40,407 nt of DNA from Eubacterium sp. Its GTDB lineage: Bacteria > Bacillota > Clostridia > Oscillospirales > Acutalibacteraceae. Under the pieces are notes generated by a model that was given only the letters and a program-made list of their open reading frames with translations, did not search any database and had not been told where the DNA came from. Both the position numbers and the translations under genes were made by a program. The DNA lies in the NCBI GenBank assembly GCA_017458975.1, contig JAFSZK010000024.1:1-40407 (forward strand), written 5' to 3'. Below, piece after piece: positions 5,559-40,407 of this stretch (the stretch's first letter is position 1; every line of letters starts with the position of its first letter).

Positions 5559-5593
5559 AATGCCGCTCCTTTATTTTAGAATAATCTATTCTT

Positions 5594-5622
5594 ATTATAA
5601 TGTATTGAGTCTGATTAATCAA
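5594..5622 (-). promoter_or_regulatory. SigA-type promoter for the GH3-xylulokinase-isomerase operon
   Basis: On the minus strand, -35 TTGATT (5617-5622) and -10 TATAAT (5594-5599) are separated by 17 bp. A perfect 10-bp palindrome, TGATTAATCA (5612-5621), covers the -35 box and may be an operator. Confidence 0.75.
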
Positions 5623-5668
5623 GACTTCCTAAAGCAACATATAAGACAAAAAGAATATAAAATATCGG

Positions 5669-5697
5669 TTGAATTAAACCGACGCTTAGTTTATAAT
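5669..5697 (+). promoter_or_regulatory. SigA-type promoter for the GH5-GH130 pair
   Basis: The boxes are -35 TTGAAT (5669-5674) and -10 TATAAT (5692-5697), with 17 bp between them. The inverted repeat CGGTT-N6-AACCG (5666-5681) spans the -35 box and is a possible repressor site. Confidence 0.75.
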
Positions 5698-5730
5698 ACA
5701 AATTAAGAAATCATTAACAGGGAGGATATA

Positions 5731-7194: not shown

Positions 7195-7206
7195 GGAGGT
7201 ACGGAT

Positions 7207-8157
7207 ATGGCAAAAATATTAGGAAACGCACTTAAAAACATCCCCTGGCAGGATAAGCCCGAGGGATACCGTTATCCCGTATGGAGATATACCGAAAATC
7301 CTATTATTACAAGGGACGATTTGTTTTTTGCAAACAGTATTTTTAACTCCGCGGTCGTACCCTTCGGCGACGGCTTTGCGGGAGTTTTCCGCGTTGACGA
7401 CAGAACGAGATACCATAATATCGTAATGGGTACAAGCAAGGACGCCATCCACTGGGAGCTCGATGAAAAGGTTATCTTTAACGGCTATGACCCGAGGCTT
7501 TGCGAAATTGACGGAAAATACTATCTTACATGGGTTAATCTTACCCCGAACGGAACAACAATCGGCGTTGCCGTAAGCGAGGATTTCAAGGAGTGGACCC
7601 AGCTTGAGGACGCTACCTATCCCGTAGCGAGAAACGGCGTTCTCTTTCCGAGAAAAATCGGCGGCGAATATGCGCTTCTCGTTCGCCCGTGTGACAGAGG
7701 ACATACGCCCTACGGCGATATTTTCCTTCAGTACAGCAAGGATTTAACCTACTGGGGCAAGTACCGCTTCGTTATGAAGCCCGAAAAGTTCTGGGAAAAA
7801 ACAAAAATCGGCGCAGGTCCGACTCCCATTGAAATTGACGAGGGCTGGCTTCTTTTCTACCACGGCGTATTAACAAGCTGTAACGGCTTTACCTACAGTA
7901 TGGGCGCGGCAATCCTTGACAGGGATGACCCGTCAAAGGTGCTCCACAGAGCGGACAGCTTCCTTCTTGCTCCCCACGAGCTTTATGAAACTGTCGGCGA
8001 CGTGCCGAACGTTGTATTCCCCTGTGCGGCTTTAACCGACGCCGAAACGGGAAGAATAGCGCTTTACTACGGCGCTGCGGATACAACCGTCGCTCTTGCG
8101 TTTACAACGGTAGACGAGGTTGTAAGCTATATAAAAGAACACGATATAATAAAATAA
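7207..8157 (+). CDS. GH130 family glycoside phosphorylase (beta-mannoside type)
   Basis: The 316-residue protein has the five-bladed propeller character of GH130. Its NGYDPR (92-97) holds the likely catalytic Asp95, and KIGAGPTPI and GWLLFYHG carry phosphate/sugar contacts typical of the family. GH130 enzymes mostly split beta-mannosides with inorganic phosphate to give mannose 1-phosphate. No signal peptide is present, consistent with an intracellular phosphorolytic step that saves ATP. It follows the GH5-like gene by 12 bp with a GAGGAGG site and ends at a strong terminator. Some GH130 members are hydrolases or act on other mannosides, so the exact substrate is open. Confidence 0.87.
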   Translation: MAKILGNALKNIPWQDKPEGYRYPVWRYTENPIITRDDLFFANSIFNSAVVPFGDGFAGVFRVDDRTRYHNIVMGTSKDAIHWELDEKVIFNGYDPRLCEIDGKYYLTWVNLTPNGTTIGVAVSEDFKEWTQLEDATYPVARNGVLFPRKIGGEYALLVRPCDRGHTPYGDIFLQYSKDLTYWGKYRFVMKPEKFWEKTKIGAGPTPIEIDEGWLLFYHGVLTSCNGFTYSMGAAILDRDDPSKVLHRADSFLLAPHELYETVGDVPNVVFPCAALTDAETGRIALYYGAADTTVALAFTTVDEVVSYIKEHDIIK

Positions 8158-19373: not shown

Positions 19374-19397
19374 AAAAGCACCCCGCGGGGTGCTTTT
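19373..19397. terminator. Bidirectional terminator
   Basis: AAAAAGCACCCC pairs with GGGGTGCTTTTT (19373-19396) around a minimal CGCG loop. It lies between two convergent genes and carries T runs on both strands. Confidence 0.9.
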
Positions 19398-20317
19398 TAT
19401 TTCCAGTCTTTTATAACCGATACGTCGCCGAAGATTTCGTCAAGTCTTCTGAAAAACGGGATAATATCGGGATAATCGTACGCTCTGTGGTCAAAGGCAA
19501 GCGTCATGGGAAGAATCTGACGAATTGCAATTTTGTCCTCTCCGTTTTCGTCCGTTACAACAACAGGCTCTTTTCTTATTGAAAGAAGCGCGATGACGCA
19601 GGTCTGAGGCGGAACAATCTGGAGCATATAACATCTCTGGCTTCCCTCGCGGTATACGGAGCCGAGATTTGATACGGTAATAGTACCCTGCTCTAAATCC
19701 TTTTGGGAAAGTCTTTCGCTTTCGGGGATTGAATAATACTTCTTCTTTTCATCGCCTTTAAGAGTTTCGACCCTGTACTTACCCGGCATTTTTGCGCCGT
19801 AAAGTCGTCTTGCCGCCTGGAGCACCTTGCCCTTTTTCAGTCCCTCTACGGTATCGTTAAGAGATACGTTAAACAGCGCCTCGTTAATATCGGTATTCTT
19901 TGCCTTTTTAACAGTTTCCTTAACGGTTTCGTCCATTTCGGTAATGCTCTTTTTCTCCATATCGCGAAGATTTACCGTCATCATTTCGCCCGTGGGAAGC
20001 ACCATCGGGATTGATATATTAATAGTATCAAAAACCTTAAGCGTACCTCTTACAAGCTTTCTGTCAAATTCAAGGTGGGAGTTAATAAGGGGCATAGCCT
20101 TAATTCCCTCGGTAATGATTTTAAGCATTACGGAATTAACGGTAATCTTATTAGCCTTGTCAACGCCCTCGTTCATTTCTTTAATAAGCGGCATAAGCTC
20201 GGTAACGTCGGCTTCGTAGGATACAACGCTGTGAGCTATAGTCTCCCAGCTTTCGCCCGTCATATTCGCTTTAATTTTCCGCGCAATGCCGAATATTTCC
20301 TGATTGTTTACTTTCAT
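19397..20317 (-). CDS. Stand-alone 2-oxoacid dehydrogenase E2-type acyltransferase catalytic domain
   Basis: The 306-residue protein consists only of the chloramphenicol-acetyltransferase-like catalytic domain of E2 enzymes. There is no lipoyl domain and no E1/E3-binding domain. ISIPMVLPTGEMM, GTITVSNLGSV and the catalytic DHRAYD (276-281) are visible; the usual HxxxDG keeps His277 and Asp281 but has Tyr282 in place of Gly. It could move acyl groups between CoA and another carrier, or have changed role. I chose ATG 20317 with its GGAGGA site rather than the longer frame from 20416. It is divergent from the T-box operon, which also handles acyl-CoA and 2-oxoacids, so a shared pathway is possible but unproven. 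Confidence 0.83.
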   Translation of the reverse strand: MKVNNQEIFGIARKIKANMTGESWETIAHSVVSYEADVTELMPLIKEMNEGVDKANKITVNSVMLKIITEGIKAMPLINSHLEFDRKLVRGTLKVFDTINISIPMVLPTGEMMTVNLRDMEKKSITEMDETVKETVKKAKNTDINEALFNVSLNDTVEGLKKGKVLQAARRLYGAKMPGKYRVETLKGDEKKKYYSIPESERLSQKDLEQGTITVSNLGSVYREGSQRCYMLQIVPPQTCVIALLSIRKEPVVVTDENGEDKIAIRQILPMTLAFDHRAYDYPDIIPFFRRLDEIFGDVSVIKDWK

Positions 20318-20348
20318 TTTTATGTCCTCCGCAAAAAAAGTTGAACCT

Positions 20349-20409: not shown

Positions 20410-20438
20410 TTGACAAATTAAAAATGCAGTTATATAAT
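20410..20438 (+). promoter_or_regulatory. Consensus sigA promoter of the T-box operon
   Basis: TTGACA (20410-20415) and TATAAT (20433-20438) are both perfect hexamers with a 17-bp spacer. Transcription should start near 20445, just before the T-box leader. Such a strong promoter fits control by attenuation downstream. Confidence 0.9.
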
Positions 20439-20449
20439 AAGTAACAATC

Positions 20450-20715
20450 AAAAGCAATGACGAAGACGGACGAATTTTAAGCTTCAAAGCGAATCGGGGA
20501 CGGTGCGAGCCCGATAAGTAAGAAATTCATGCTCCTATCCCTTCCGAGCCGGAAATCCGAAAGTTAAGACAAGTAGGCGTTTCCCGTGTAGGCTGCGTTA
20601 AAGCATACGGCTTGATAGAGCCTGAGTGGCGCATAAGCGCAATTTGAGTGGTACCGCGGGTGCTGAAAGATGTTTTCAATGCTCGTCTCAAAGGAAGCTT
20701 TGGGACGGGCTTTTT
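20450..20715 (+). ncRNA. T-box riboswitch (tRNA-sensing leader)
   Basis: The leader has the K-turn AATGACGAAGA near 20456 and the apical AGCGA bulge (20488-20492). A distal hairpin ATCGGG/CCCGAT (20493-20498 with 20510-20515) encloses GACGGTGCGAG, very like the B. subtilis glyQS apex. GAGC (20546-20549) closes stem I. A GCGTTA box lies near 20595 and the T-box GAGTGGTACCGCGG at 20646-20659, followed by a terminator. The UGGU bulge should pair with a tRNA ending A73-CCA, which argues against Ser, Gly and Cys. Stem I shows GAATTTT/GAAATTC pairing, with the specifier loop below it around 20529-20540. The codon is unresolved: ATC (537-539) fits the distance to GAGC, while CTC or CCT (532-536) fits the distance to the apex. 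Confidence 0.93.
20681..20715 (+). terminator. T-box-regulated attenuator terminator
   Basis: A 13-bp stem (20681-20693 with 20698-20710) around the loop GAAG is followed by five T residues. The upstream T-box can pair with the left arm to form the antiterminator when uncharged tRNA is bound. Confidence 0.92.
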
Positions 20716-20772
20716 GTTTTCAGAGCTTTCCGAATCTATCGAATATTTCATAATATGAAAAGGAGAAAGAAA

Positions 20773-23040
20773 ATGAGCGAAAACAATGTTATGACTCAAC
20801 TGTCCGAGGTTGCCGCAAGAATTAAGGGTACCCGTGAAATCATGGGCTGGTCAACTTCAAAGATGGCAAAAAAGACCGACGTTGACAAGGACACCTACCT
20901 TGCGTATGAAAGCGGAGAGCTTGACCTTCCGTTTACCTTCATTCACAAATGCGCGCTTGCCTTCGGTATTGAAATTACCGAGCTTCTTGAGGGTCAGGGA
21001 GCCCACCTTTCCTCGTTTACGGTAACAAGAGCCGGCGAGGGCCGCGAAACCGCAAAAGAGGACGGAATTACAATTAAAAACCTTGCCCACGAATTTAAGC
21101 ATAAGATTGCCGAGCCTTACTGGGTAAAATATGAATACTCAAAGGAGCTTCAGAATAAGCCAATCCACCTCACCAAGCACAGCGGTCAGGAATTTGATAT
21201 CGTTATCAAGGGCAGCCTTAAGGTTCAGGTAGGCTCTAATACCGCAATTCTTAACGAGGGCGACTCCATCTATTATAATTCCTCAACTCCCCACGGTATG
21301 ATTGCAATTGACGGCGAGGACTGCACCTTCCTTGCGGTCGTACTTCCGGGTAAGGAGGTTCAGGAAAACAAGCTTCGCGAAAGCATCGCCTCAACAAGAC
21401 CGAGCGAAAAGCTCCTTTGCGAAGAATTTATTGATACAACCGAAAACGAAAAGGGTAAGCTTACCGATATCAAGTTTAAAAATACCGAGCGCTTCAACTT
21501 TGCCTTTGACTGCGTTGACGCCGTTGCGGATAAATATCCCGATAAGCTTGCAATGATTCATCTTGATAAAAACAAGAACGAAAGACGCTTTACCTTTAAA
21601 GAAATCAAACAGGAAAGCAACAGAACGGCTAACTATTTTACCTCGCTCGGAATTAAAAAGGGCGATAAGGTAATGCTTATTTTAAAGCGCCGCTACCAGT
21701 TCTGGTTCTCAATGCTTGCGCTTCATAAAATCGGTGCGGTTCCGATTCCCGCTACCAATCAGCTTAAGGCGCACGACCTTGTTTACCGCTTCAACGCGGC
21801 GGGCGTAAAGGCTATTGTTTGTATGGAGGACGACGGTATTCCCGAGTCGGTTGAAGAGGCTATGAAGGATTCTCCGAGCCTTGAAACGAAGGTGCTCGTT
21901 GGAAAAGAGCGCGAGGGATGGCATAACTTTGAAAAAGAATATTCAATGTTCTCAACCCATTATAACCGTACCGAGTCTTCCCCGGCAGGCGAAGATACAA
22001 TGGTTATGTTCTTCACCTCGGGTACAACGGGAAATCCGAAAATGGCGGCTCATTCCCACCTCTATGCACTCGGTCATTTTGTAACCGCAAAGTATTGGCA
22101 CTGCTGTGAGCGCGACGGACTCCACCTTACAATTTCAGACACGGGCTGGGGAAAATCCCTCTGGGGCAAGCTCTACGGCCAGTGGCTTTGCGAGGGCGCG
22201 GTATTTGTATACGATTTTGACCGCTTCCATGCGGACGATTTGCTTCCGCTTTTCAAGCAGTATAATATCACTACCTTCTGCGCTCCGCCTACAATGCTCC
22301 GTCTTTTCATTAAAGAGGATTTATCCAAGTACGATTTATCCTCAATCCACCATATGACTACGGCGGGCGAGGCGCTCAATCCCGAGGTATTCAAGCGCTT
22401 TGAGGAGGCTACGGGCCTCTCAATTATGGAGGGCTTCGGCCAGACCGAAACGACTCTTATTATCGCAAACCTCTACGGCTCAAGAACCAAGGTAGGCTCA
22501 ATGGGCAAGCCCAATCCGCAGTACGATATTGACATCGTTGACGAAAACGGCAGGAGCGTTGAAACCGGCGAAACGGGCGAAATCGTTGTACGCCTTGATA
22601 AGGGTTATCCCTGCGGACTCTATAAAGGATATTACAGGGACGAGGAAAAAACCAACGAGGCAATTTATGATAATATGTACCACACGGGCGATACCGCATG
22701 GCGCGACGAGGACGGATATTTCTGGTACGTCAGCCGTATCGACGACGTTATCAAGTCCTCGGGCTACCGTATCGGTCCGTTTGAAATTGAAAGCGTTATT
22801 ATGGAGCTTCCCTATGTTCTTGAATGCGGCGTATCCGCTGCTCCCGACGAGGTAAGGGGCCAGGTTGTCAAGGCAAGCGTCGTGCTTGTTAAGGGTACCG
22901 AGGGAACCGAGGAGCTTAAAAAGGAAATCCAGAACTACGTTAAAAAGAATACCGCTCCGTATAAGTATCCCCGTATAGTAGAATTCCGCGAGGAGCTTCC
23001 GAAAACAATCAGCGGTAAAATTATAAGAAATCAGCTGTAA
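20773..23040 (+). CDS. HTH-cupin-acyl-CoA synthetase fusion (AMP-forming acid:CoA ligase)
   Basis: The 755-residue protein has three parts. Residues about 8-73 are an XRE-type helix-turn-helix. Residues about 100-192 are a cupin barrel with HLTKHSGQEFDIVIKG and YYNSSTPHGM. Residues about 235-755 are an AMP-forming acyl-CoA synthetase. The ligase motifs are FFTSGTTGNPK (413-423), GFGQTE, YHTGDTAWRDEDGY, SRIDDVIKSSGYRIGP and the C-terminal KTISGKI with the adenylation lysine. It resembles medium-chain/acetate-type ligases. It should activate a carboxylic acid to its CoA thioester; the DNA-binding and cupin parts may sense a ligand. I chose ATG 20773 because AGGAG lies eight bases upstream; in-frame ATGs at 20755 and 20626 lie before or inside the leader. 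It is first of six genes under the T-box. Confidence 0.9.
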   Translation: MSENNVMTQLSEVAARIKGTREIMGWSTSKMAKKTDVDKDTYLAYESGELDLPFTFIHKCALAFGIEITELLEGQGAHLSSFTVTRAGEGRETAKEDGITIKNLAHEFKHKIAEPYWVKYEYSKELQNKPIHLTKHSGQEFDIVIKGSLKVQVGSNTAILNEGDSIYYNSSTPHGMIAIDGEDCTFLAVVLPGKEVQENKLRESIASTRPSEKLLCEEFIDTTENEKGKLTDIKFKNTERFNFAFDCVDAVADKYPDKLAMIHLDKNKNERRFTFKEIKQESNRTANYFTSLGIKKGDKVMLILKRRYQFWFSMLALHKIGAVPIPATNQLKAHDLVYRFNAAGVKAIVCMEDDGIPESVEEAMKDSPSLETKVLVGKEREGWHNFEKEYSMFSTHYNRTESSPAGEDTMVMFFTSGTTGNPKMAAHSHLYALGHFVTAKYWHCCERDGLHLTISDTGWGKSLWGKLYGQWLCEGAVFVYDFDRFHADDLLPLFKQYNITTFCAPPTMLRLFIKEDLSKYDLSSIHHMTTAGEALNPEVFKRFEEATGLSIMEGFGQTETTLIIANLYGSRTKVGSMGKPNPQYDIDIVDENGRSVETGETGEIVVRLDKGYPCGLYKGYYRDEEKTNEAIYDNMYHTGDTAWRDEDGYFWYVSRIDDVIKSSGYRIGPFEIESVIMELPYVLECGVSAAPDEVRGQVVKASVVLVKGTEGTEELKKEIQNYVKKNTAPYKYPRIVEFREELPKTISGKIIRNQL

Positions 23041-23041
23041 T

Positions 23042-23692
23042 ATGAAAAGAGTTACACTTTTTGCAGGCCACTACGGCAGCGGAAAAACAAATATCGCGGT
23101 TAATTACGCGCTTAAAATGCACGAAGAGGGATATGACGTTAAAATCGCCGACCTTGATATAGTTAATCCGTATTTCAGAACCAAGGATTCGGCTGACGAT
23201 TTAGCAAGGGCGAATATTGAATTAATCTCCCCCGCCTATGCAAATTCAAACGTCGATTTACCCGCCCTTCCCCAGGAAGTATACGGACTCGTGCAAAATA
23301 AAAGATTTTATGCTATAATGGATATCGGCGGCGACGAAAGAGGCGCGCTCGCGCTCGGAAGATACCGCCCCTACATTCTTGAGGAAAACGACTTTGAAAT
23401 GGTATTCGTCGCTAATTTCTACCGTCCCTTAACCCGTACCGCCGAGGAGGCGCTCGAGGTTATGAAAGAGATTGAGGCGGCGGGCGGAATCCCGTTTACT
23501 TCTATTGTAAACAACTCTAATATCGGAGAGGAAACGACCGTCGGGGATATTAAAAAAAGCGAAGCCGAGCTTAAAAGGCTTTGCGAAATATCAAATCTTC
23601 CCGTACTTTTCACAAGCGTTAAAGAGGATTTAGCAAACGAGCTTGACGGAGATATACTTCCCCTCAGGCTTCAGAAAAAGTTAATTATTTAG
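23042..23692 (+). CDS. P-loop ATPase of the MinD/ParA/CobQ (SIMIBI) class
   Basis: The 216-residue protein has a Walker A FAGHYGSGKT (7-16), a switch-like IADLDIVNPYFR and a Walker B-like IMDIGGDERG. It keeps the nucleotide-binding character of the deviant Walker-A/SIMIBI group that includes MinD and metal-cluster maturation ATPases. No membrane segment and no iron-sulfur cysteine pair are seen. It starts one base after the ligase stop and is followed 15 bp later by the ferredoxin subunit gene, so it belongs to the operon. A role in assembling or activating the oxidoreductase is plausible from position only; its function is otherwise unknown to me. Confidence 0.82.
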   Translation: MKRVTLFAGHYGSGKTNIAVNYALKMHEEGYDVKIADLDIVNPYFRTKDSADDLARANIELISPAYANSNVDLPALPQEVYGLVQNKRFYAIMDIGGDERGALALGRYRPYILEENDFEMVFVANFYRPLTRTAEEALEVMKEIEAAGGIPFTSIVNNSNIGEETTVGDIKKSEAELKRLCEISNLPVLFTSVKEDLANELDGDILPLRLQKKLII

Positions 23693-23707
23693 CAAAGGAG
23701 ATATATT

Positions 23708-23914
23708 ATGCCAAAAGTAACCTTTAACGAGGATTTGTGTAAGGGCTGCGGACTCTGCGTCAACGCGTGCCCGAAACAGATTATCGAAATCAAAAAAGAC
23801 ATTATTAACAAGAAAGGACATTCTCCTGCGGGTATTACCGACCAGTCAAAATGTATTGCCTGCGCTTTTTGCGCTACAATGTGTCCCGACTGCGTAATTA
23901 CCGTTGAGAAATGA
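23708..23914 (+). CDS. 2-oxoacid:ferredoxin oxidoreductase delta subunit (2[4Fe-4S] ferredoxin)
   Basis: The 68-residue protein carries two classic [4Fe-4S] motifs: CKGCGLCVNACP (Cys11, 14, 17, 21) and CIACAFCATMCP (Cys49, 52, 55, 59). It matches the small ferredoxin subunit of four-subunit oxidoreductases and would pass electrons between the thiamine-diphosphate site and free ferredoxin. It has an AAAGGAG site. The alpha subunit start follows 10 bp later. Confidence 0.93.
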   Translation: MPKVTFNEDLCKGCGLCVNACPKQIIEIKKDIINKKGHSPAGITDQSKCIACAFCATMCPDCVITVEK

Positions 23915-23924
23915 GGTGAAAGCA

Positions 23925-24986
23925 ATGAGCGAAAAAGTTTTAATGAAGGGTAACGAGGCTATCGCGGAAGCCGCTATCAGAGCGGGCTGCCGTCATTACT
24001 TCGGCTATCCCATTACTCCCCAGACCGAGCTTGCCGCATATATGGCTAAGCGTATGCCTAAAATCGGCGGTTGCTTCCTTCAGGCGGAAAGCGAAATCGC
24101 CGCAATCAATATGGTTTACGGCGTATCTTCAACAGGTAAAAGGGTTATGACCTCCTCGTCAAGCCCCGGCGTATCACTTAAGCAGGAGGGTATCTCATAC
24201 ATCGCAGGCGCAGACCTTCCCGCTCTTATCGTTAACGTTCAGAGAGGCGGTCCGGGTCTCGGCGGTATCCAGCCCTCACAGTCGGATTATTTCCAGGCTA
24301 CAAAGGGCGGCGGACACGGCGATTACCATCTTATCGTACTCGCTCCCGCTTCGGTTCAGGAAATGGCTGACCTCACGGCAAAATGCTTTGAGCTCGGCGA
24401 TAAATACCGTATGCCCGCAATGCTTCTTGCCGACGGAACAATGGGTCAGATGATGGAGCCCGTTGAGCTTCCCGAGGAAAGCGACGTTACCGTTGAAAAA
24501 CCCTGGGCGCTTACCGGTACCGAAATGAAAAGAGAGCATAATATCGTTAACTCCCTTTATCTCAAGCCCGAAGAGCTTGAAGAAAAGAACTTCGAGAGAT
24601 ATGAGAGATATAAGGCAGTTGAAGAAAACGAGGTTATGTTTGAGGAATATATGATGGACGACGCCGAAATTTGCGTAATGGCATTCGGCATCGCCGCAAG
24701 AGTTTCCAAAAACGCAGTTGTTGAAGCAAGAAAGCAGGGTATTAAAGCCGGTCTTTTAAGACCGATTACCCTCTGGCCCTTCCCGAAAGAGGCTGTTAAA
24801 AAGGCAAGCGAACACGTTAAGGGCTTCATATCCGTTGAGCTTTCAATGGGTCAGATGATTGAAGATATTAAGCTTTCAAGCGACTGCGCAGTTCCCGTAG
24901 AGCTCTGCAACCGTGCCGGCGGTATGATTCCGTCGCCCGAGCAGGTTCTCGATTCTATTAAGAAAATGGCAGGAGGTAATGAATAA
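23925..24986 (+). CDS. vorB: 2-oxoacid:ferredoxin oxidoreductase alpha subunit (VorB type)
   Basis: The 353-residue subunit starts with KGNEAIAEAAIRAGCRHYFG, then GYPITPQTE, the signature of the pyrimidine-binding half of these oxidoreductases and closest in look to the branched-chain (VorB) group. QAESEIAAINMVYG and RGGPGLGGIQPSQSD follow. The enzyme interconverts a 2-oxoacid with acyl-CoA and CO2 using ferredoxin, and the reaction is reversible in anaerobes. I chose ATG 23925 for its AGGTGA site; an upstream ATG at 23904 overlaps the ferredoxin gene. Its stop overlaps the beta start by one base (TAATG). Confidence 0.9.
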   Translation: MSEKVLMKGNEAIAEAAIRAGCRHYFGYPITPQTELAAYMAKRMPKIGGCFLQAESEIAAINMVYGVSSTGKRVMTSSSSPGVSLKQEGISYIAGADLPALIVNVQRGGPGLGGIQPSQSDYFQATKGGGHGDYHLIVLAPASVQEMADLTAKCFELGDKYRMPAMLLADGTMGQMMEPVELPEESDVTVEKPWALTGTEMKREHNIVNSLYLKPEELEEKNFERYERYKAVEENEVMFEEYMMDDAEICVMAFGIAARVSKNAVVEARKQGIKAGLLRPITLWPFPKEAVKKASEHVKGFISVELSMGQMIEDIKLSSDCAVPVELCNRAGGMIPSPEQVLDSIKKMAGGNE

Positions 24987-25735
24987 TGGTAGTATTTGAA
25001 AAACCGAAATCACTTTGCGACGTACCGCTTCATTACTGCCCGGGCTGTACTCACGGTATTGTTCACCGTCTTGTAGCCGAGTCCATCGACGAGCTCGGCG
25101 TTGAGGGCAAGGCAATCGGCGTTGCTCCCGTAGGCTGCGCCGTTATGGCGTACGACTATTTCAAGTGCGATATGATTGAGGCTGCTCACGGCAGAGCGCC
25201 CGCTGTTGCAACGGGTATTAAGAGAGCGCTTCCCGAAAACGTGGTTTTCACATATCAGGGCGACGGCGACCTCGCTTCAATCGGTATGGCTGAAACGGTT
25301 CACGCCGCAACAAGAAACGAAAATATTACGGTAATCTTTATCAATAACGCAATTTACGGTATGACGGGCGGTCAGATGGCTCCTACCTCGCTTCCCGGTC
25401 AGGTTACTCAGACCTCTCCCTACGGACGCGACGTGTCAACCGCAGGCTACCCCGTTAAGGTAAGCGAGCTTCTTTCCGCGCTTGACGGACCCGCTTATAT
25501 CCAGAGAGTTGCAGTTAATAACGTTAAAAACGTAAAGCAGGCTAAAAAGGCAATCAAAAAGGCTTTTGAAAACCAGATTGAGGGCAAGGGCTTTTCGCTT
25601 ATCGAGGTTGTATCCTCATGTCCCACAAACTGGGGTATGACTCCTCAGCAGGCGCTTGACTGGGTAGAAAGCGATATGATTCCCTACTATCCGCTCGGCG
25701 TTTATAAGGATAAGACAGCACAGGAGGGCGAATAA
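24986..25735 (+). CDS. 2-oxoacid:ferredoxin oxidoreductase beta subunit (thiamine diphosphate binding)
   Basis: The 249-residue subunit holds the TPP-binding domain. HYCPGCTHG near the N-terminus contributes to the active site, VGCAVMAYDYF follows, and the TPP/Mg motif runs from GDGDLASIG to INNAIYGMTGGQM. AHGRAPAVATG is the usual family loop. It pairs with the alpha subunit to form the catalytic core. The gene is coupled to both neighbours: a one-base overlap upstream and one base before the gamma gene. Confidence 0.92.
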   Translation: MVVFEKPKSLCDVPLHYCPGCTHGIVHRLVAESIDELGVEGKAIGVAPVGCAVMAYDYFKCDMIEAAHGRAPAVATGIKRALPENVVFTYQGDGDLASIGMAETVHAATRNENITVIFINNAIYGMTGGQMAPTSLPGQVTQTSPYGRDVSTAGYPVKVSELLSALDGPAYIQRVAVNNVKNVKQAKKAIKKAFENQIEGKGFSLIEVVSSCPTNWGMTPQQALDWVESDMIPYYPLGVYKDKTAQEGE

Positions 25736-25736
25736 A

Positions 25737-26267
25737 ATGAATACTAAAATTTTAATTGCCGGCTTCGGCGGTCAGGGTATCCTTTTTGCGGGTAAGGTTC
25801 TTGCTTACAAAGGACTTGTTGAGGAAAAACAGCTTTCATGGCTTCCCTCCTACGGTCCCGAAATGCGCGGCGGTACGGCTAACTGTAACGTAATTATCAG
25901 CGACGAGCCCGTCGGCTCTCCGATAGTTGACGCGCCCGACGTGCTTATCGTTATGAACCTTCCCTCGCTTGACAAATATGAAAACGCCGTTGAAAAGGGC
26001 GGAAAGATTTTTGTTGACGAAACTCTTATTAACCGCAAGGTTGAAAGGGACGACGTTGACGTGTTCTATATTCCCGCAACAAAAATGGCTCAGGAGCTCG
26101 GAGTTCCGACTCTTGCAAATATGATTATGCTCGGCAAGGTTATAAAGGAAACCGATGTTGTATCCTTCGAGGGTATGGAGGACGCACTTAAAAAGGTCGT
26201 TTCTGCAAGAAAAGCTAACCTTATCGACATTAACCTTAAAGCAATCAAGGCAGGCTACGATTTTTAA
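25737..26267 (+). CDS. 2-oxoacid:ferredoxin oxidoreductase gamma subunit
   Basis: The 176-residue protein has the gamma-family start [19 protein letters not shown], then [17 protein letters not shown] and the later [12 protein letters not shown]. It completes the delta-alpha-beta-gamma set, so the oxidoreductase is whole. It is the last gene of the T-box operon; a terminator follows at 26266. No aminotransferase is in the operon, so any amino acid product would rely on an enzyme made elsewhere. Confidence 0.93.
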
Positions 26268-26292
26268 AAAACACCCTTCGGGGTGTTTTTTT
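26266..26292 (+). terminator. Terminator of the T-box operon
   Basis: AAAACACCC and GGGTGTTTT pair around a TTCG tetraloop, followed by further T residues. Confidence 0.9.
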
Positions 26293-32676: not shown

Positions 32677-35600
32677 TTAGTGTGAGGTTACGCTGTGGGG
32701 GATGTATTCTCCCGGAATGAAGAACTGTCTTGCGCCTTCGCTTTCAAGTTCGGTATTCTGTACCCTGTACCTTTCGTCAAGATAGATATCGTCAACGTTG
32801 GGTGCAGCGTCGTCATACTTCTTCTGAGGAATAATGAATACATTACCCGACTCAACAACGTGGAGGTCCATGGTTCGCCAGTTCTCAAATCTGTGAAGTT
32901 TGAGATAGTACGAGCTCATATCAACCGTATCACCGAGGATACAACCCCAGATTTCGTTGTAGAAGCCGTCAAGCGTAATTGATTCAACCTTGGTCTTGTT
33001 GCCCGTTAACCAGTGCGTGTCAACCTGCTGGCTCTTAGTGGGCGCGTAGAACAGAGCTCCGAGCTTTGAATACATACCGAAGTAAGTGATATGGCCGAGG
33101 TACGAACAAATTGCGTTAGGCAATTCTTTTGCGTTTCTTTCGGCATTTTCGGTTTGTGTATAAACGTTTCGGATGTTCGCGTTACCCTTGTTAGCAACAA
33201 TATAGGTCATACGCATCTGGATGGTGGTTGAAATATCAATATTATTATACGCATATACAACCGCAGGATAAGATACCTGACACTTAACCGCTTCGGAGGC
33301 GGGTATCGCAGCTCCGCAGACGTCGCACTTAACGTATCCGCTCGTCGGCTTTTCGGTATCTCTTACGGTCATATTGTAATAATAACCGTCGTGCTTTTCG
33401 TAATTCTTACACGTGTATCTCCAGCCGAGACCTGCGCTTCCGTAGGAGTCGAAGCCTACTACGGATTCGTTTCCGAACAGAGCGTCAAGCGAAAGGTTAA
33501 CGCTCGGAGCGTTACAGTTAAAGTCGTGGCCGAGATAAATCAGTGTATCCTGACGAAGTACGCACTGGCCGAGTACCTGGCAGTCATACGTGCCGAGGAG
33601 CGACGCATTTCTGTTAAGCGTGAGCTCACCCATTGTATAAAGCGTACCGTCGTGGGCAGTGAAATATTCTTCCTTAATGTTATATGCAGCGCCAAGGAAG
33701 AAGTCCTTGATATCGCCCCAGATTGAGCCGTCGCTCGTCGGATGATAAGGCTCATAAACATAGGTCTTGTTATCCTTATCGCCGTAGAGACTGTAAAGCT
33801 CGGGAAGAATCCACATATCCGCATTATGACGAAGCGTTACGTACTTAGGAGTAAATACAACGCCGCCGACTGATACGAAGGAGAATGCAAATTCCTTAAT
33901 ATATCCGGTATATGACAGGAGCGAGCCTGCAATAAACATATCGCCGCCGAGAGCCGGGTCGCTTGTATCGTCCGTAAGCTCGGTTGAGGTATTGAGCGTT
34001 TCGGGATATACGTAGTTACCGTTTTCGTCGGTAATCGGATTGCCGTTGCTGTCCTTAACGGGCTCGGCAACCTCGCCCTGCTCGTCGTCGTTACCACCGC
34101 TGGTATTATTATCCTGGCTACCTTCGGTGGAATCGCCGCTCTTTTCGCCCTCCTCACCTTCATACTTAGCCTCGCCGCCTTCAAGGGCGTTGACCTTGTT
34201 GAGGGTCTTGTCGGTTCTTACGAAGTCGCCCGCCTTACCGAGCTCAATATAACTAAGCGCGGTTGCGTTACCTCCGACTGCAACAGTCGTCTGGTCTCGG
34301 ATTTTCATCTTACCCAGCTTAGCTTTAAGGTCGCCGGCACAGATAATATTCGAGTACGAGCCCGCGTCAATATCCGTATCAGCCAATACCCTGCCGTTTG
34401 CAATAAGCTTAGCGTCGTGACGAAGCGTAATATACTTATTAGAAACTACGTCGCCGTCGGCTCTGAGCGTTGCAGAGGCGAAAATCTTTGTATAGCTCTT
34501 AGCAAAGAGAAGGTTTGTAATAAGGTTATAACGACCGCCGCTCTCGTAATTTCCGCCTACGTACATATAGGTCGAGTTAGAGAACTTATAATCGTCAAGA
34601 TATGCCTGCTCGCTGTGATTAGCAATCCATGCCAGTTCTCTCGGCGTTCGGAACCGGGCTTCCTTTGCCTCGGTTTCATCCACGCCGTCTATCGCCTTTC
34701 CGAGCTCAACATAGTCGGTACACCTGAAGTTACCGTAGAAGTAGTTTTGGGTCATATCGCGGATTTTAGCCGTATCCTTGACATAAGCCGAACCGTTAGC
34801 GGTAATTCTTGAGTTTTCATTTTCGTCAAACGCCTGGTATACGAAGAAGCGATAATCCGTCTGGTCAAGCAAGCCGATAATATTAGCCGCAGCAGTCGGG
34901 TTTGTAAACGCCTCAAAGATTGTTCTGATAAGGCTCTTTCTTACATAGAAGTCCTTAACGCCCGCAACCTGAAGGGTTACATTCTTCTTCATATAAACCT
35001 TGGAGTTAGCGAAGAAGGAACCGCCGACGTACATATTCGTATTAGAATAAATATCAAAGTCACGCGACGCGTTCATCGGTACCTGGTAGAGGTTTGAACC
35101 CCACTGGTAATTTGCTTTACCGAAGGAGTTAGCAATCAGGTTACCGCCGCAGTAGAAATAGGTTTCTCCGTAGAGATCCGTATCGTCGTAATCCATTACA
35201 GGAACGTTACTTGTTGTAATAATGTTAAGTATGTTAAAGCCGGCTTTTCTGAAATCAACGTTTGCGCCGAGCTTTGTAGCACGCGATGACTTATAGTCGC
35301 CTCCGCACATAAAGATTGAACCGTTACCAATTGCAACGCCCGAGCCGCCGTGGAAGTTTCTTCCTACAAAGGTCTGAGAATTCTGACCTGCAAGGTATGC
35401 GGTATAGAAGTATGAATTCTTCTTACCGAAGATACCCGAAAGAAGTCCGCCGCCGGAGAATACATTGTACCACGCGCCGTTCTCAACCGTCTGGTCGAAG
35501 GTATAAACAAGAAGGTCGTTTCTTACGTAAACCTCGCCTATATTAACCATTGAGCCTGCGGGACCGCCGTTATCAACCTGATAACCGAACTGCATCGTTC

Positions 35601-38600
35601 CGCCGCAGTAAACGGTTGCCTGGGGATATCTGTAGCTTCCGTCAACTACCTCTGCGTCAATCTTAAACAAGCCGTTCATAAACGAGAAGCTGTTGTCCTT
35701 ATTTCTGTAAGCCTTTGCGCTCGGACGGGTTGTTTCGCCGTCTGCCTCATTATTGGTAATATCGCCGGTTACGTAGAATTCGCCGCAGTTATATGCACAC
35801 ATACCGTAGGTAAGCTTACCCGAAACGCCTACCTTACCGTAACCCTTGTTAATAATCTGGTTAGAGTTACATCTGAGGTCGCCGTTAATATGGGTCTGAG
35901 CGTTTTGATAGTTAACGTATGCAAAATCCTGAGAGGCTTCGCCAATAGTCGTATAACCGTTAACCGAAAGCGCGGAATTCATATAAACCTTACCCGCGTT
36001 TTTAACAACGCCGACAAAGTAAATCGGATTGTTCTGAGCGCCAACATAGAAGGTTGCGTTTGTATCGCCTTCATATTCGCCGTTTTTAAGCGAAATACCC
36101 TCTTGCTGCTTGTTCTGCTCCTTCTTATCGGTTGACCATGTTGTCGTCTGAAGGTTAAAGCGGTTACCGATGATAAGCTTACCGTAGTTGTAAATAGCAC
36201 AGCCCATGGTAAGGTTATCCTTCATAATGAGTCCGCCGCTCTGCTTAATAAAGAACGCGTTGTCGTTACAGGTTGTTACGCTGCCCGAAACGAAGGTATT
36301 ACCGCTCGGAATCCAAACGGTTACGCCTCTGTTGGGGAAGCCCGGATTTCCGCTTGTTGTGTCAAGCTCTTTGTCGCCGTTGGGAATGTAACCGTCTACC
36401 CTAAGGTTACTTTCAAAATATACGTTTCCGCGGGCTTCATACTGCGAATTAAAGGTAAAGGTATCGGAGCCCTGAACAGGACCGATATATGAATCGGAGC
36501 CCGAAAGGAAATCTGCGTCACAGAAGCTTGTATACTCGTCAGTACCAATAAGAACGTCATTAGTTTTTACACGTCCTCGTTTTGTAGCGTTACCGTAATT
36601 AATACCGCCGACAAGATACATCTTTCCGCTTGTGTTAATAAAGCAGTTTTCAAAGGTGGAAATACCCTTTACGTAGCAGTAGCCGTTTGAGCCGATGCTG
36701 AAGTCTTCCTTGACTCCGCTTTTATAATCGCCGCCTCTGCCCATAAACTTGGCATTACCCTGAATAACCGCAAAGCCGCCGCTGCCGATATTAAAGCGGT
36801 CAAAGTTAATTGTTGAGGTCGGATAATAGAACTGACCTGCCGCAATAAGCGCCGCATTATTGCCGGTTGAGGATTTTTCACCGCAGAAGATAAGACCCTT
36901 GTTTCCGTCGGATACAAATTTACCCGTAGTCGGATTATCGCGGTTATCGCAATCCGCCTTAAGGTCTACGGCGTAGAAGCCGCACACCTCGGAGTTAATA
37001 GCGCTTACGGATTTAGCGGTAATTCTGCCCTCTGCGTAAACGTATGAGCTTCCGTTTGCATTAATAGGTCCGTTACAGTAAATGTTTGACCTGTAAGCGT
37101 TAAACCAGTTTGCAATCGCCTGTAAGGTTGAAATTGTAAAGCTTGCAAGCGTAGTTGCATCAATATCGTTTCTGCAAAGGATTGTCGATTTGTCGTTAAG
37201 ATTAATTGAGGTCGGAGTTAAGCCGCCGTCTTTACCTATACCGCGGTCAGCATAGAGCTTTGATTTAGTTACAGTGATAATTCCGCCGTACTCAATATTA
37301 CCCGTAACGTAAAGCTTTGAATTACCGGTTAAGTTAAAGCTGTCGCCCGTTCCCGTAATCTTTAAGTTACCTACAATCTTAAGAACCGAATCATTAATAT
37401 TAACGCTCGGTACCGTTAAGGTTCCGCCTTCGGGAATGTAAATGTAATGGGCAATACCGTTTAACTGAATCGGTGTATTATCAGCTATACTAACGGTCTG
37501 AGGACCGTGGAGCGTTCCGCCGCCCGAGGTAGTAACGCCGTTTAAAGCGGTTGCGCCCGTTATTGCTTCAAGATATGCGCCGTCGGTAATAACAATGCAA
37601 TCGCCCGCAGTAACCTGATTAGAATGAACCCAGGTAGAGCTTCCGTCAACAACAAGCTTTAATACATTTATCTGGCCCCTTACAAAGAGCTTATGTCCGC
37701 CGTTTACGGTAAGGGTTGTGCCTGTTGCGGAAATATTTCCGTCAACATAGCTTGTGTTCGACGTGGTATACGTTGCTTCGGAGATATTGCTTAAAGTAAG
37801 GTTTCCGAATACGTACATCCGTCCCTTATTATAGAAGCCGCCTCCGTTTACGGTAAGGCTCTTACCGAAGTATACCGACGAGGAGTTAGCGTTATTCTGG
37901 AATTTGACAAGCTTTGAGTTGCCGCATTCGCTGTAACCGTTACCTAATACGCTGAGAGTTACGTTTGAGGAAACGCTGTCGTCCTCAATCCAGATTTTAC
38001 CGCCGCCGCTTGCCGAGGAGGTAATAGCGCCGCGGATAAATACCTTAGTATTTGAACCTCTTATTTCAATGATATTGCTGTCGTCGCCGGTTGTGTTAGC
38101 GCCGCTTAAATTTGCTAAGGTATAAAGGTTACCGCCCTGCTGAAGAACTGTTCCGTTAGCTGAAATAGTTCCGCCGCAGAAGATATTACCTAAATTATAG
38201 ATAGAGAAGTTATTTCTTCCGCTGAATTCGCCCGAGCCGTTAAAAGTACCCTGAACTGTTAAGCTGCCTGTACACGTTACGTCTCTTGTATTAACAAGCC
38301 AGCCCTGAATAGTAAGGTTCTTAGCGCAGATTGCAGAGCCCTCTTCGGTAACGCTTACGTTGCCCTTAATAACGCTTGCGTTGCCGCGGCAGATAATCTT
38401 AGCGTTCTTGCCGAGAGTAACCGTACCGTCTACTAATAAGTCTCCGTTACAGATAAGCACGCAGTTTTCACCGAGTTCGATGTCGCGTCTGGTCCAGAGC
38501 TGTCCGTCACAGATAACGATTGAGTTATTGCTCATTCTTAAGTAACCGCTGTCACTGCCGTTATCAACACCGACGTCGAGCTTGTTTTTACAGATAAGGA

Positions 38601-40407
38601 AAGAGTTGCTTCCCATATCAATATTAGTATCAACTCTAAGACCGTAACCGTTTCCGTCTGCACCTTCTGTGATAACACCTGCGTTCTGAGCCATTACAAG
38701 AGCTTTCTTGTTCTGGGTGTACATATAACCCGTGGTTCTGAAACGCATTGATTTACCTACATAGAAGCCCTTGCTTTCAATGCCGTGTTCACCACCGCCA
38801 TCATTAGCCCAGTTACCGTTAACCTTGTAGAAATCATCGCCGCTTGTGCAGGTGATCTTACTTTCGTTTCGGTCTTTCATGCCCCAGCTGAAATATCTTG
38901 CTCTTACAACGTTTGAACCGTCTTTCGGCTCAAGAACCTTGTAGTAATCACCCTTTCTAAGACCTTCAGTACCACTGAAAGCTCTGAGTGAACCGTCATT
39001 GTTACAAATAATTATTTTATCTGCCGGATTGCCGTCCCAGTCAGCGGAAGCCGCATAAGTATTCCAGTTAGACCTGTACGAATCAAGCTCTGTAATAAAG
39101 CCTGCTGCAGTAGTATTGTATTTAAGAGTAAAATCGTGCTGCCAGTCGTCGCCGGTACCTGAGAAATTAGAAGTCCAGCCCCACATACCGTAGGTTTTAA
39201 TATTAGTTGACGCACTTACGCTCATTGAAGTGATTTTACTGTTATAGGTTGCTCTTGCGCCCGAGGAACCAATACTTTTGCTCTCGCCGTTAACATTTAT
39301 AGAGCCTGTGCCGAGGAAGAGCGGATTATAATCAGTAGGATAGTCAAAGCTCTTTGTCGGTTCAACCGACTCCTCGGAAGCGTTCTCGGGAACGTCCGGC
39401 TTTTCAACCGCTACAATATCGTCCTTTACGGTCTTTTCCTTTTCTTTGTAGCTCTTCTTCTGGTTAGTAAGGTCGTTTTCAATTTCGGTTTTCTTGTTAG
39501 CTACGGCATTGAAGCTGTCGTTCTTAGCAAAATACTGCTGAGCAACAACGGTATTATAAAACGTACCTACAGCCGCTCCGCCGAAGTCCTTATGGCCCAT
39601 ATTCGGATTAAGGTGTGCATCATAGAATTCCTGAATAAAGGTCTGAGGAGTCTTAAGATAATCGCCGTCATAAAGGTCATATCCCTTAAAGGTTGTATGG
39701 CGGTTATCGTAAACCTTATTACCGTCCTCATCAAGAGAATAGTAATATGTAAGTCCGCCGGATTCGCTCTCTCTCTTTTGGGTGAAGAGGAGAGTTTTAT
39801 CCTTCTTTGTATAATCGTTATGACTTGAATATTCGTATACCTGGTCGTCGGTTAAATCATCGTCGGCATAATCGGGAAGGTCATACTTTCTGTCCTGATA
39901 GGTGTATTCATAGGTAGTGTTGCCTTCGTCGTCGGTGCCGGTAGCGTACTTATTTTTAGCCGCCTTAATAATATCCTGGTATTCCTTACCCTTGGTATCA
40001 ACAGCCTGCTTAATATTTCTGTCGCCCGCGGTGGAGGAGCCGAGCTCTTCCTTTGTCTTTGTAGCGTTTCTTACCGAACGGTTAATCTGTCTTGTAAAGT
40101 AAGGCTTAAGGTTCGGCATCGAAATATATTCGCTGTCCTCCTGGAAGGTATTTAAAATTGCGGATTTAACGCCTAAGTCGGTGCTTTCGGGAGCTGTTGC
40201 GCCGAGCTTAGTATAGTTTCTTGCAACAGCCTTACCGGTTACCGAAAGATTAAGGGTATCGCGTACGGGCGCGCCGTTGTTATCAATAACCTGGTTGCCC
40301 GCGTTGTCGGTCTTGGCTCTTGAGAACTGAACGTTATATTCAAAGTTCTCGCCCTTATCGCTGCTGTTAGCAAAGAGTAATTCGTCACTGTTCTGCTTTG
40401 TAAGCGG
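32677..40407 (-). CDS. Giant repetitive, probably beta-solenoid surface protein (5' end outside window)
   Basis: At least 2,576 residues are visible; the frame stays open to the right edge, so the N-terminus, signal and any pilin-like segment are missing. The apparent ATG at 40119 is internal. A long stretch (from about 36.0 to 38.7 kb) repeats short strand units such as IFCGGTISANG, VYCGGTMQFG, YFYCGGNLIANS and MYVGGSFFANS, at the spacing of a right-handed beta-solenoid. Runs like GNLTLSNIS, KLYVTGNIEY and VICDGQLW recall bactofilin-like or minor-pilin solenoid domains; that assignment is inference. An acidic Gly/Ser/Asn-rich linker lies near 34.0-34.2 kb, and a CxxC-x(11)-C cluster near 33.3 kb. 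No LPXTG or C-terminal membrane helix exists. Confidence 0.75.
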   Translation of the reverse strand, partial: PLTKQNSDELLFANSSDKGENFEYNVQFSRAKTDNAGNQVIDNNGAPVRDTLNLSVTGKAVARNYTKLGATAPESTDLGVKSAILNTFQEDSEYISMPNLKPYFTRQINRSVRNATKTKEELGSSTAGDRNIKQAVDTKGKEYQDIIKAAKNKYATGTDDEGNTTYEYTYQDRKYDLPDYADDDLTDDQVYEYSSHNDYTKKDKTLLFTQKRESESGGLTYYYSLDEDGNKVYDNRHTTFKGYDLYDGDYLKTPQTFIQEFYDAHLNPNMGHKDFGGAAVGTFYNTVVAQQYFAKNDSFNAVANKKTEIENDLTNQKKSYKEKEKTVKDDIVAVEKPDVPENASEESVEPTKSFDYPTDYNPLFLGTGSINVNGESKSIGSSGARATYNSKITSMSVSASTNIKTYGMWGWTSNFSGTGDDWQHDFTLKYNTTAAGFITELDSYRSNWNTYAASADWDGNPADKIIICNNDGSLRAFSGTEGLRKGDYYKVLEPKDGSNVVRARYFSWGMKDRNESKITCTSGDDFYKVNGNWANDGGGEHGIESKGFYVGKSMRFRTTGYMYTQNKKALVMAQNAGVITEGADGNGYGLRVDTNIDMGSNSFLICKNKLDVGVDNGSDSGYLRMSNNSIVICDGQLWTRRDIELGENCVLICNGDLLVDGTVTLGKNAKIICRGNASVIKGNVSVTEEGSAICAKNLTIQGWLVNTRDVTCTGSLTVQGTFNGSGEFSGRNNFSIYNLGNIFCGGTISANGTVLQQGGNLYTLANLSGANTTGDDSNIIEIRGSNTKVFIRGAITSSASGGGKIWIEDDSVSSNVTLSVLGNGYSECGNSKLVKFQNNANSSSVYFGKSLTVNGGGFYNKGRMYVFGNLTLSNISEATYTTSNTSYVDGNISATGTTLTVNGGHKLFVRGQINVLKLVVDGSSTWVHSNQVTAGDCIVITDGAYLEAITGATALNGVTTSGGGTLHGPQTVSIADNTPIQLNGIAHYIYIPEGGTLTVPSVNINDSVLKIVGNLKITGTGDSFNLTGNSKLYVTGNIEYGGIITVTKSKLYADRGIGKDGGLTPTSINLNDKSTILCRNDIDATTLASFTISTLQAIANWFNAYRSNIYCNGPINANGSSYVYAEGRITAKSVSAINSEVCGFYAVDLKADCDNRDNPTTGKFVSDGNKGLIFCGEKSSTGNNAALIAAGQFYYPTSTINFDRFNIGSGGFAVIQGNAKFMGRGGDYKSGVKEDFSIGSNGYCYVKGISTFENCFINTSGKMYLVGGINYGNATKRGRVKTNDVLIGTDEYTSFCDADFLSGSDSYIGPVQGSDTFTFNSQYEARGNVYFESNLRVDGYIPNGDKELDTTSGNPGFPNRGVTVWIPSGNTFVSGSVTTCNDNAFFIKQSGGLIMKDNLTMGCAIYNYGKLIIGNRFNLQTTTWSTDKKEQNKQQEGISLKNGEYEGDTNATFYVGAQNNPIYFVGVVKNAGKVYMNSALSVNGYTTIGEASQDFAYVNYQNAQTHINGDLRCNSNQIINKGYGKVGVSGKLTYGMCAYNCGEFYVTGDITNNEADGETTRPSAKAYRNKDNSFSFMNGLFKIDAEVVDGSYRYPQATVYCGGTMQFGYQVDNGGPAGSMVNIGEVYVRNDLLVYTFDQTVENGAWYNVFSGGGLLSGIFGKKNSYFYTAYLAGQNSQTFVGRNFHGGSGVAIGNGSIFMCGGDYKSSRATKLGANVDFRKAGFNILNIITTSNVPVMDYDDTDLYGETYFYCGGNLIANSFGKANYQWGSNLYQVPMNASRDFDIYSNTNMYVGGSFFANSKVYMKKNVTLQVAGVKDFYVRKSLIRTIFEAFTNPTAAANIIGLLDQTDYRFFVYQAFDENENSRITANGSAYVKDTAKIRDMTQNYFYGNFRCTDYVELGKAIDGVDETEAKEARFRTPRELAWIANHSEQAYLDDYKFSNSTYMYVGGNYESGGRYNLITNLLFAKSYTKIFASATLRADGDVVSNKYITLRHDAKLIANGRVLADTDIDAGSYSNIICAGDLKAKLGKMKIRDQTTVAVGGNATALSYIELGKAGDFVRTDKTLNKVNALEGGEAKYEGEEGEKSGDSTEGSQDNNTSGGNDDEQGEVAEPVKDSNGNPITDENGNYVYPETLNTSTELTDDTSDPALGGDMFIAGSLLSYTGYIKEFAFSFVSVGGVVFTPKYVTLRHNADMWILPELYSLYGDKDNKTYVYEPYHPTSDGSIWGDIKDFFLGAAYNIKEEYFTAHDGTLYTMGELTLNRNASLLGTYDCQVLGQCVLRQDTLIYLGHDFNCNAPSVNLSLDALFGNESVVGFDSYGSAGLGWRYTCKNYEKHDGYYYNMTVRDTEKPTSGYVKCDVCGAAIPASEAVKCQVSYPAVVYAYNNIDISTTIQMRMTYIVANKGNANIRNVYTQTENAERNAKELPNAICSYLGHITYFGMYSKLGALFYAPTKSQQVDTHWLTGNKTKVESITLDGFYNEIWGCILGDTVDMSSYYLKLHRFENWRTMDLHVVESGNVFIIPQKKYDDAAPNVDDIYLDERYRVQNTELESEGARQFFIPGEYIPHSVTSH

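Follow-up and report, generated by a model that had tools for sequence, protein, structure and literature searches.

A T-box-controlled operon for the probable reductive carboxylation of 2-methylbutyrate to isoleucine in Eubacterium sp., with valine and leucine counterparts in its relatives

The stretch of DNA considered here (hereafter the window) comprises 40,407 nucleotides (nt) of Eubacterium sp. (Acutalibacteraceae; assembly GCA_017458975.1, contig JAFSZK010000024.1, positions 1-40,407, forward strand) and carries, between positions 20410 and 26267 of its plus strand, an operon composed of a promoter, a T-box leader, a terminator and six genes (Table 1). The first gene encodes an acyl-CoA synthetase fused to a helix-turn-helix (HTH)-cupin region, the second a nucleoside triphosphatase (NTPase), and the remaining ones all four subunits (alpha, beta, gamma and delta) of a 2-oxoacid:ferredoxin oxidoreductase. 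The original prediction, made from the letters of this stretch, had claimed a perfect promoter and a T-box leader ahead of a synthetase fusion, an ATPase and a complete four-subunit VorB-type oxidoreductase, and each of these elements is borne out by consensus and covariance matches for the former pair and by domain and family matches for the genes. The stretch has 3 promoter-like sites, compared with 0.8 on average (sd 1.0) after shuffling, and PF12844 is matched by the synthetase with a score just under its cut-off. Considered together with the comparative data given below, the operon very probably represents a T-box-controlled system for reductive carboxylation of branched short acids, in the given genome of 2-methylbutyrate to isoleucine.

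Table 1. Coordinates of the operon elements (window positions) and of the LeuA-like gene on another contig of the same genome
Feature	Position	Strand	Details
Sigma-70-type promoter, TTGACA-17-TATAAT	20410-20438	+	12/12 consensus positions
T-box leader, RF00230	20448-20693	+	cmscan 70.6 bits, E 1.8e-15 (421 nt searched)
Specifier codon, read as ATC (Ile)	20537-20539	+	codon, 1 nt, then 3' strand of lower stem I
T-box sequence TGGTACCGCGG	20649-20659	+	able to pair with tRNA acceptor end (NCCA)
Intrinsic terminator stem	20681-20710	+	13 pairs, 7 G-C; then U run TTTTTGTTTT
HTH-cupin-AMP-forming acyl-CoA synthetase, 755 aa, Ile-type	20773-23040	+	PF07883, PF00501, PF13193 above cut-off
P-loop NTPase, SIMIBI type, 216 aa	23042-23692	+	weak ParA/CbiA matches
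VorD, ferredoxin-like delta subunit	23708-23914	+	Fer4, two stretches
VorB, 2-oxoacid:ferredoxin oxidoreductase alpha subunit	23928-24986	+	NF005507 555 bits (cut-off 399)
VorA, beta (thiamine pyrophosphate) subunit	24986-25735	+	PF02775; NF007207 and TIGR02177 below cut-offs
VorC, gamma subunit	25737-26267	+	PF01558; TIGR02175 82.1 bits (cut-off 81.1)
LeuA-like pseudo-enzyme under Leu T-box, next to barrel-ligase fusion	L048 4251-5636, minus strand (own contig C8)		

Assignment of the leader to T-boxes is based on its E-value, on the full-length alignment (model positions 1-219) and on its homologues, and not on the family cut-off. Covariance search through the own genome returned it with an E-value of 1.9e-15, nine T-boxes with E below 1e-14 being found in the genome as a whole. 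The terminator overlaps the antiterminator region of the RF00230 model, and from this overlap the two structures may be read as competing; minimum free energy folding of the leader alone was uninformative (z of -1.32). The pairing of the T-box sequence with tRNA follows the UGGN rule as worded in excerpts of the TBDB paper (PMC7778990). Covariance folding and alignment of homologous leaders, by which the original prediction had proposed to fix the specifier, were carried out, and the codon read is ATC, isoleucine. In the Rfam alignment the specifier columns adjoin this codon, with a small insertion; the leader has an unusual specifier loop. The positional rule by which the codon was located (Table 1) finds the right codon in 7/7 own-genome T-boxes standing before known genes, which we take, from our own reading of the proteins, to be valS, pheS, asnS, cysE, thrS, a trpB-like gene and trpE; for five of these T-boxes the codon came out of a computed check, which also listed other candidate places, while for pheS and thrS it was read off by eye.

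Comparison of T-boxes across homologous operons, likewise suggested by the original prediction, covered the best 80 of at least 591 confirmed loci, to which one more (L049) was added, and these 81 loci hold 131 synthetase genes or large fragments. Most of the 80 are titled as metagenome-assembled genomes and, by our count, 39 of the 80 name a ruminant host; at a loose cut-off of 1e-50 the synthetase is matched in 25 genomes among 60 relatives. The first readable set of 14 distinct leaders, including the window's own, gave 13 ATC and one GTA. Extended to all 131 genes, readable leaders amount to 110, of which 70 carry ATC (Ile), 37 GTA and 3 GTC (both Val), and no other codon was met among them. 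The script called 69 ATC, 33 GTA and 2 GTC, and the remaining seven leaders were inspected by eye (L055, ATC; L056, L061, L086 and L091, GTA; L054, cut; L106, GTC from the Rfam alignment). Many loci have a tandem of two synthetases, of which the leading one is preceded by an Ile T-box and the following one by a Val T-box, with one Vor set after both. Since the leaders share ancestry, the 110 counts are not independent trials, and stronger evidence than the raw numbers is provided by synonymous codon changes keeping the amino acid and by two particular loci. Around the specifier, the two leaders of L114 (Ile, CCC-ATC-CCTTCCGAGCCG; Val, CCC-GTC-CCTTCCGAGCCG) are alike in all but the first base of the codon. 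At L106 (6301-6494) the Val leader has a different, canonical T-box architecture (128.4 bits) and likewise carries GTC, so that, compared with the Ile-leader-like Val T-box of L114 (near 3084), Val T-boxes appear to have two different origins. A riboswitch of the tetrahydrofolate (THF) class was recorded at 248-348 of locus L111 (74.6 bits).

A third amino acid is named in a companion module. On contig C8 of the own genome a T-box stands before the genes for a LeuA-like protein and for an 840-aa protein in which a barrel of the AP-endonuclease-2 type is fused to an AMP ligase, and the LeuA-like gene of this module is present in 24 of the 80 loci. All 24 readable leaders of the module, read by eye, specify leucine (17 CTC and 7 CTG). 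They come from a set of 24 loci (14 readable with 8 CTC and 6 CTG, 9 motif-less, and one spurious, L065) and from a second set of 13 (10 readable with 9 CTC and 1 CTG, one cut, L134, and 2 motif-less); in the leaders of L118 and L121 the 5' partner stem is poor or out of view. Taken with the synthetase leaders, all readable specifiers (110 and 24) name Ile, Val or Leu, and none belongs to an amino acid lacking a matching short acid, such as proline, a finding that the original prediction had singled out as contradicting it. The LeuA-like proteins themselves retain neither TLRDGEQ, presumably the DRE-TIM catalytic motif, nor HxHND, which we take to be the metal-binding motif of LeuA: both are kept in 0/13 and 0/24 rows of the two sets (in the larger one the first motif region is missing in 3 rows and the second in 2) and in 7/7 rows of ordinary LeuA. 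The copy of this genome keeps the LeuA_dimer domain, that is the allosteric one. It may thus be supposed that the LeuA-like protein serves as a leucine sensor for a ligase that presumably acts on isovalerate. In G007, a genome with IlvC, the LeuA-like copy is listed with TGA inside the match.

In the FastTree phylogeny, where the outgroup branches are long, synthetases labelled Ile and Val fall into two separate groups without crossing: 78 rows in the Ile group (70 with ATC, 7 with no codon, 1 cut) and 46 in the Val group (38 Val, 8 with none). The window synthetase sits in the Ile clade. Its best match in PDB is 3etc (631 bits), the MacsMa enzyme, for which excerpts of PMC10455477 give 2-methylbutyrate as preferred substrate, and its best NCBIfam match is MbcS (NF047394) with 461 bits at a cut-off of 850; it may work like MbcS while not being filed as such. 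The MbcS of S. aureus selectively activates isobutyrate and 2-methylbutyrate but accepts isovalerate poorly (excerpts of PMC10026030). The two types differ at 13 positions, each residue being kept in at least 85% of its type, and 11 of the 13 lie within residues 53-116, the HTH-cupin region (window 20929-21120); this distribution suggests that the region acts as a specific sensor. The two positions in the ligase part are Gly in the Ile-type and Ala in the Val-type at residues 460 and 475, with the exception of one Ile-type row that also has Ala at 460. Residue 460 belongs to the DTGW-G/A-K motif, four residues before Trp464, which in our own alignment and its numbering corresponds to the pocket Trp259 of MacsMa, and Ala at this place is predicted to make the pocket smaller and would fit isobutyrate. 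A Val-type synthetase was sought in this draft genome and none was found; the only other listed relative there is a split pair of HTH-cupin and ligase genes on contig C14, a contig with no T-box among the own-genome matches listed.

In 45 of the 80 loci the synthetase gene is followed, in the same orientation, by the complete set of NTPase and VorD-B-A-C genes, and 28 of these 45 complete operons also include a branched-chain aminotransferase (IlvE). Where at least 3 kb of sequence is available after the last synthetase (56 loci), VorB is found there in 48 loci, and of the other eight, two (L066 and L097) have Vor genes on the opposite strand. The aminotransferase in the operon of L049 passes the cut-offs of NF009897 and TIGR01123 (475 and 398 bits), and so does the one of this genome (444 and 374 bits), which is unlinked to the operon. 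For the NTPase the structure model (pLDDT 89.7) gave as best Foldseek matches signal recognition particle GTPases and HypB (TMq about 0.5-0.6), and the protein, encoded between the synthetase and the Vor genes, is possibly an assembly factor. Search for a second Vor set in the draft genome revealed only one VorB-type gene, the other match being IorA-like with 27% identity. Contig C19 (L170) of this genome contains what we read as IorA- and IorB-like genes, two genes for PaaK-like ligases and one for an ACT-domain-like protein; no T-box motif was listed for L170, and the set is possibly an aromatic counterpart.

Genes of the textbook pathways show a complementary picture. In this draft genome, which is 90% complete, neither IlvC (PF01450) nor IlvD (PF00920) was found, and no LeuC-sized aconitase-family gene (with a frame of about 420-440 aa taken as the measure) is present among the matches listed; the aconitase family is represented by two pieces on different contigs, which together make about 650 aa. 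Within the genus (37 genomes including the own one, 62-99% complete) IlvC is encoded by 1/7 genomes with the synthetase against 25/30 without it, IlvD by 1/7 against 26/30, and both are absent in 6/7 synthetase-bearing genomes, the own included. The sister genome G026 (L172), which is devoid of the operon, has ilvB-ilvN-leuC at one conserved place; on the own contig C1 (L166) and in two operon-bearing relatives (L167 and L168) ilvB-ilvN is followed there by the next gene, with no leuC. At the level of the order, represented by 395 genomes at least 90% complete, IlvC was found in 35/113 genomes with a strong synthetase homologue, classed by homology alone and not by T-box, against 213/282 without it (Fisher p 2.7e-16 in a test that ignores phylogeny), "strong" meaning a best E of at most 1e-270, a limit set after the table had been seen and counting G120 (1.1e-269) and weaker homologues as negative. 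Divided by module and again ignoring phylogeny, IlvC occurs in 5/56 genomes with both the synthetase and the LeuA-like gene, 30/57 with the synthetase only and 208/275 with neither; a LeuA-like gene without strong synthetase is seen in 7 genomes of the order, 5 of them with IlvC.

T-boxes switch genes on when the named amino acid runs short. On this basis the following sequence of events may be proposed. As charged tRNA-Ile becomes low, uncharged tRNA-Ile (anticodon GAU) would pair both with the specifier (ATC) and with the T-box sequence, allowing the antiterminator to form and the operon to be transcribed. The synthetase would then convert 2-methylbutyrate to its CoA ester and, since no separate Val-type synthetase is found in this genome, perhaps isobutyrate as well. 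VorDBAC, running backwards at the expense of reduced ferredoxin and CO2, would yield 3-methyl-2-oxopentanoate, to be turned to isoleucine by a branched-chain aminotransferase, encoded in the operon of many relatives and elsewhere in this genome. In relatives the same oxidoreductase would also serve a Val-type synthetase, which has a Val T-box to itself, and the Leu T-box module would supply the third ligase, presumably for isovalerate, so that the route would take the place of the pathways through IlvC/IlvD and LeuC. The T-box, the specifiers, the gene content, the pathway genes not found and the clades are observed features of the genomes; the substrates of the enzymes, the direction of the reaction, deduced from genetics, and the choice of isovalerate are what we infer from them, and given the pathway so deduced the specifier matches it. 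Biosynthesis by reductive carboxylation, as foreseen by the original prediction, is thereby supported by the Ile specifier, its Val and Leu versions, the IlvC, IlvD and LeuC genes not found and the aminotransferases in operons. As for the acids that had been offered, the branched-chain ones stand (Ile here, Val and Leu in relatives) and phenylacetate, with the aromatic series, finds no support for the operon considered.

Several observations weigh against this interpretation. The window leader with its 70.6 bits stays below the Rfam gathering score of 93, which is why the default scan of the whole window came out empty; of nine loci scanned, five gave nine T-box matches above this score (for instance, 103.6 and 99.0 bits at L057, 98.0 and 128.4 bits at L106) and the remaining four gave none. 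For twenty of the 131 synthetase genes, either the upstream 400 nt are devoid of a T-box motif or the sequence is cut, as it is at L054 in addition, and no motif was seen at L024 and L026, whose synthetases are 59% and 56% identical. An ilvB-ilvN pair resembling acetohydroxyacid synthase (AHAS) is kept in this genome in the absence of ilvC and ilvD and has no role in the proposed scheme. Because 35 of the 113 genomes of the order that encode a strong synthetase homologue encode IlvC as well, the carboxylation route does not replace the standard one in every case; both synthetase and IlvC are present, for example, in G001 and G050. Finally, the source genome is a draft of 90% completeness, and its source of valine is unassigned.

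Retention of AHAS genes, observed here and in same-genus genomes with the operon, would be accounted for if the synthetase activated propionate and the oxidoreductase made 2-oxobutyrate for the ordinary isoleucine pathway (AHAS, IlvC, IlvD), to which the Ile specifier fits as well. This route was set aside since IlvC and IlvD were not found, both being absent from the 6/7 same-genus genomes mentioned above, and since sister synthetases with Val T-boxes stand before the same oxidoreductase genes, which propionate leaves unexplained; the closest solved homologue, moreover, prefers 2-methylbutyrate, and we regard the propionate variant as highly improbable. The opposite direction, from branched 2-oxoacids to acyl-CoA for energy or branched membrane lipids with the synthetase salvaging acids in the manner of MbcS, draws on the very name of the VorB family, that of a 2-oxoacid dehydrogenase, and on the S. 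aureus enzyme, which serves lipid synthesis (excerpts of PMC10026030). Nevertheless, Ile, Val and Leu specifiers are kept separately, and the genomes concerned lack biosynthetic genes. Furthermore, it is general knowledge that a T-box turns its genes on when the amino acid is short, just when breakdown of 2-oxoacids would be harmful, and catabolism thus appears very unlikely.

Broad substrate range is generally known to be common in this enzyme superfamily, and one might therefore imagine the T-box as inherited baggage of an operon having a mixed or aromatic role, for instance with aryl acids. The aromatic role was set aside because of the specifiers, none of the 134 readable leaders naming an aromatic amino acid, so that the aromatic option contained in the original prediction is not borne out; besides, contig C19 has what we read as an IorAB-like set of its own, accompanied by two PaaK-like ligases. 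We consider this reading to have next to no likelihood. Returning to reductive carboxylation of branched acids, its broadest form would be that in many uncultured Clostridia of the gut the textbook pathway is replaced by three T-box-coded ligases feeding one shared oxidoreductase, the T-box codon of each naming the amino acid made from its acid, with a dead LeuA, its leucine-binding domain retained, as leucine sensor for the isovalerate ligase and with the HTH-cupin parts of the Ile and Val ligases as the corresponding sensors; this generalization is tentative, and we would put it slightly below an even chance.

Outside the operon, the divergent gene at 19397-20320 (minus strand) encodes a lipoyl-less 2-oxoacid dehydrogenase E2-type acyltransferase, homologues of which (73-88% identity) occur in L012-L015, L017 and L050 and in no other locus compared. 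The window further contains a cluster of glycoside hydrolase (GH) family GH3, FGGY kinase, fucose isomerase-type, GH5 cellulase-type and GH130 phosphorylase genes (644-8157) and an open frame of 2480 aa (32677-40119, minus strand).

In the literature searched, most subscription papers lying outside its coverage, no report of a T-box-coded system for carboxylation of branched acids was found, nor any gene set with regulation for the carboxylation route; the words "oxidoreductase" and "CoA" are absent from the main texts of a 2008 survey of T-boxes (PMC2494555) and of the TBDB paper. What is new is accordingly the gene system with its tRNA code, the chemistry being long known. Since the substrate of each ligase can be predicted from its T-box codon before any assay, the route becomes recognizable in a genome. 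Genomes without ilvC, ilvD and leuC, then, need not be amino acid auxotrophs, and Vor genes need not signal amino acid degradation. Branched volatile fatty acids are described as growth factors of rumen bacteria, and isoacids as being fed to ruminants.

Compared with known transcriptional T-boxes (RF00230), the elements are the same (stem I, specifier, T-box sequence, antiterminator, terminator), as is the association with amino acid supply genes, whereas the placement on a carboxylation operon, the Ile and Val T-boxes serial in one operon and the Leu T-box in a neighbouring module are different. The AMP-forming synthetase resembles MacsMa and MbcS in sequence but has the N-terminal HTH-cupin region added. 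The oxidoreductase resembles 2-ketoisovalerate:ferredoxin oxidoreductase (VorDBAC) in its four subunits and in VorB exceeding the NCBIfam cut-off, while the logic of the operon appears biosynthetic here. Physiologically, the three conversions are those described for rumen organisms, isovalerate to leucine, isobutyrate to valine and 2-methylbutyrate to isoleucine (Allison and co-workers, as cited in excerpts of PMC7356843), but here a gene set and tRNA-sensing control are proposed for them in mostly uncultured Clostridia. In Methanobrevibacter ruminantium, an organism requiring 2-methylbutyrate, isoleucine is probably derived from 2-methylbutyrate by reductive carboxylation (PMC2812497, in excerpt), the same route to this amino acid, although the organism is an archaeon and the excerpted text names no T-box.

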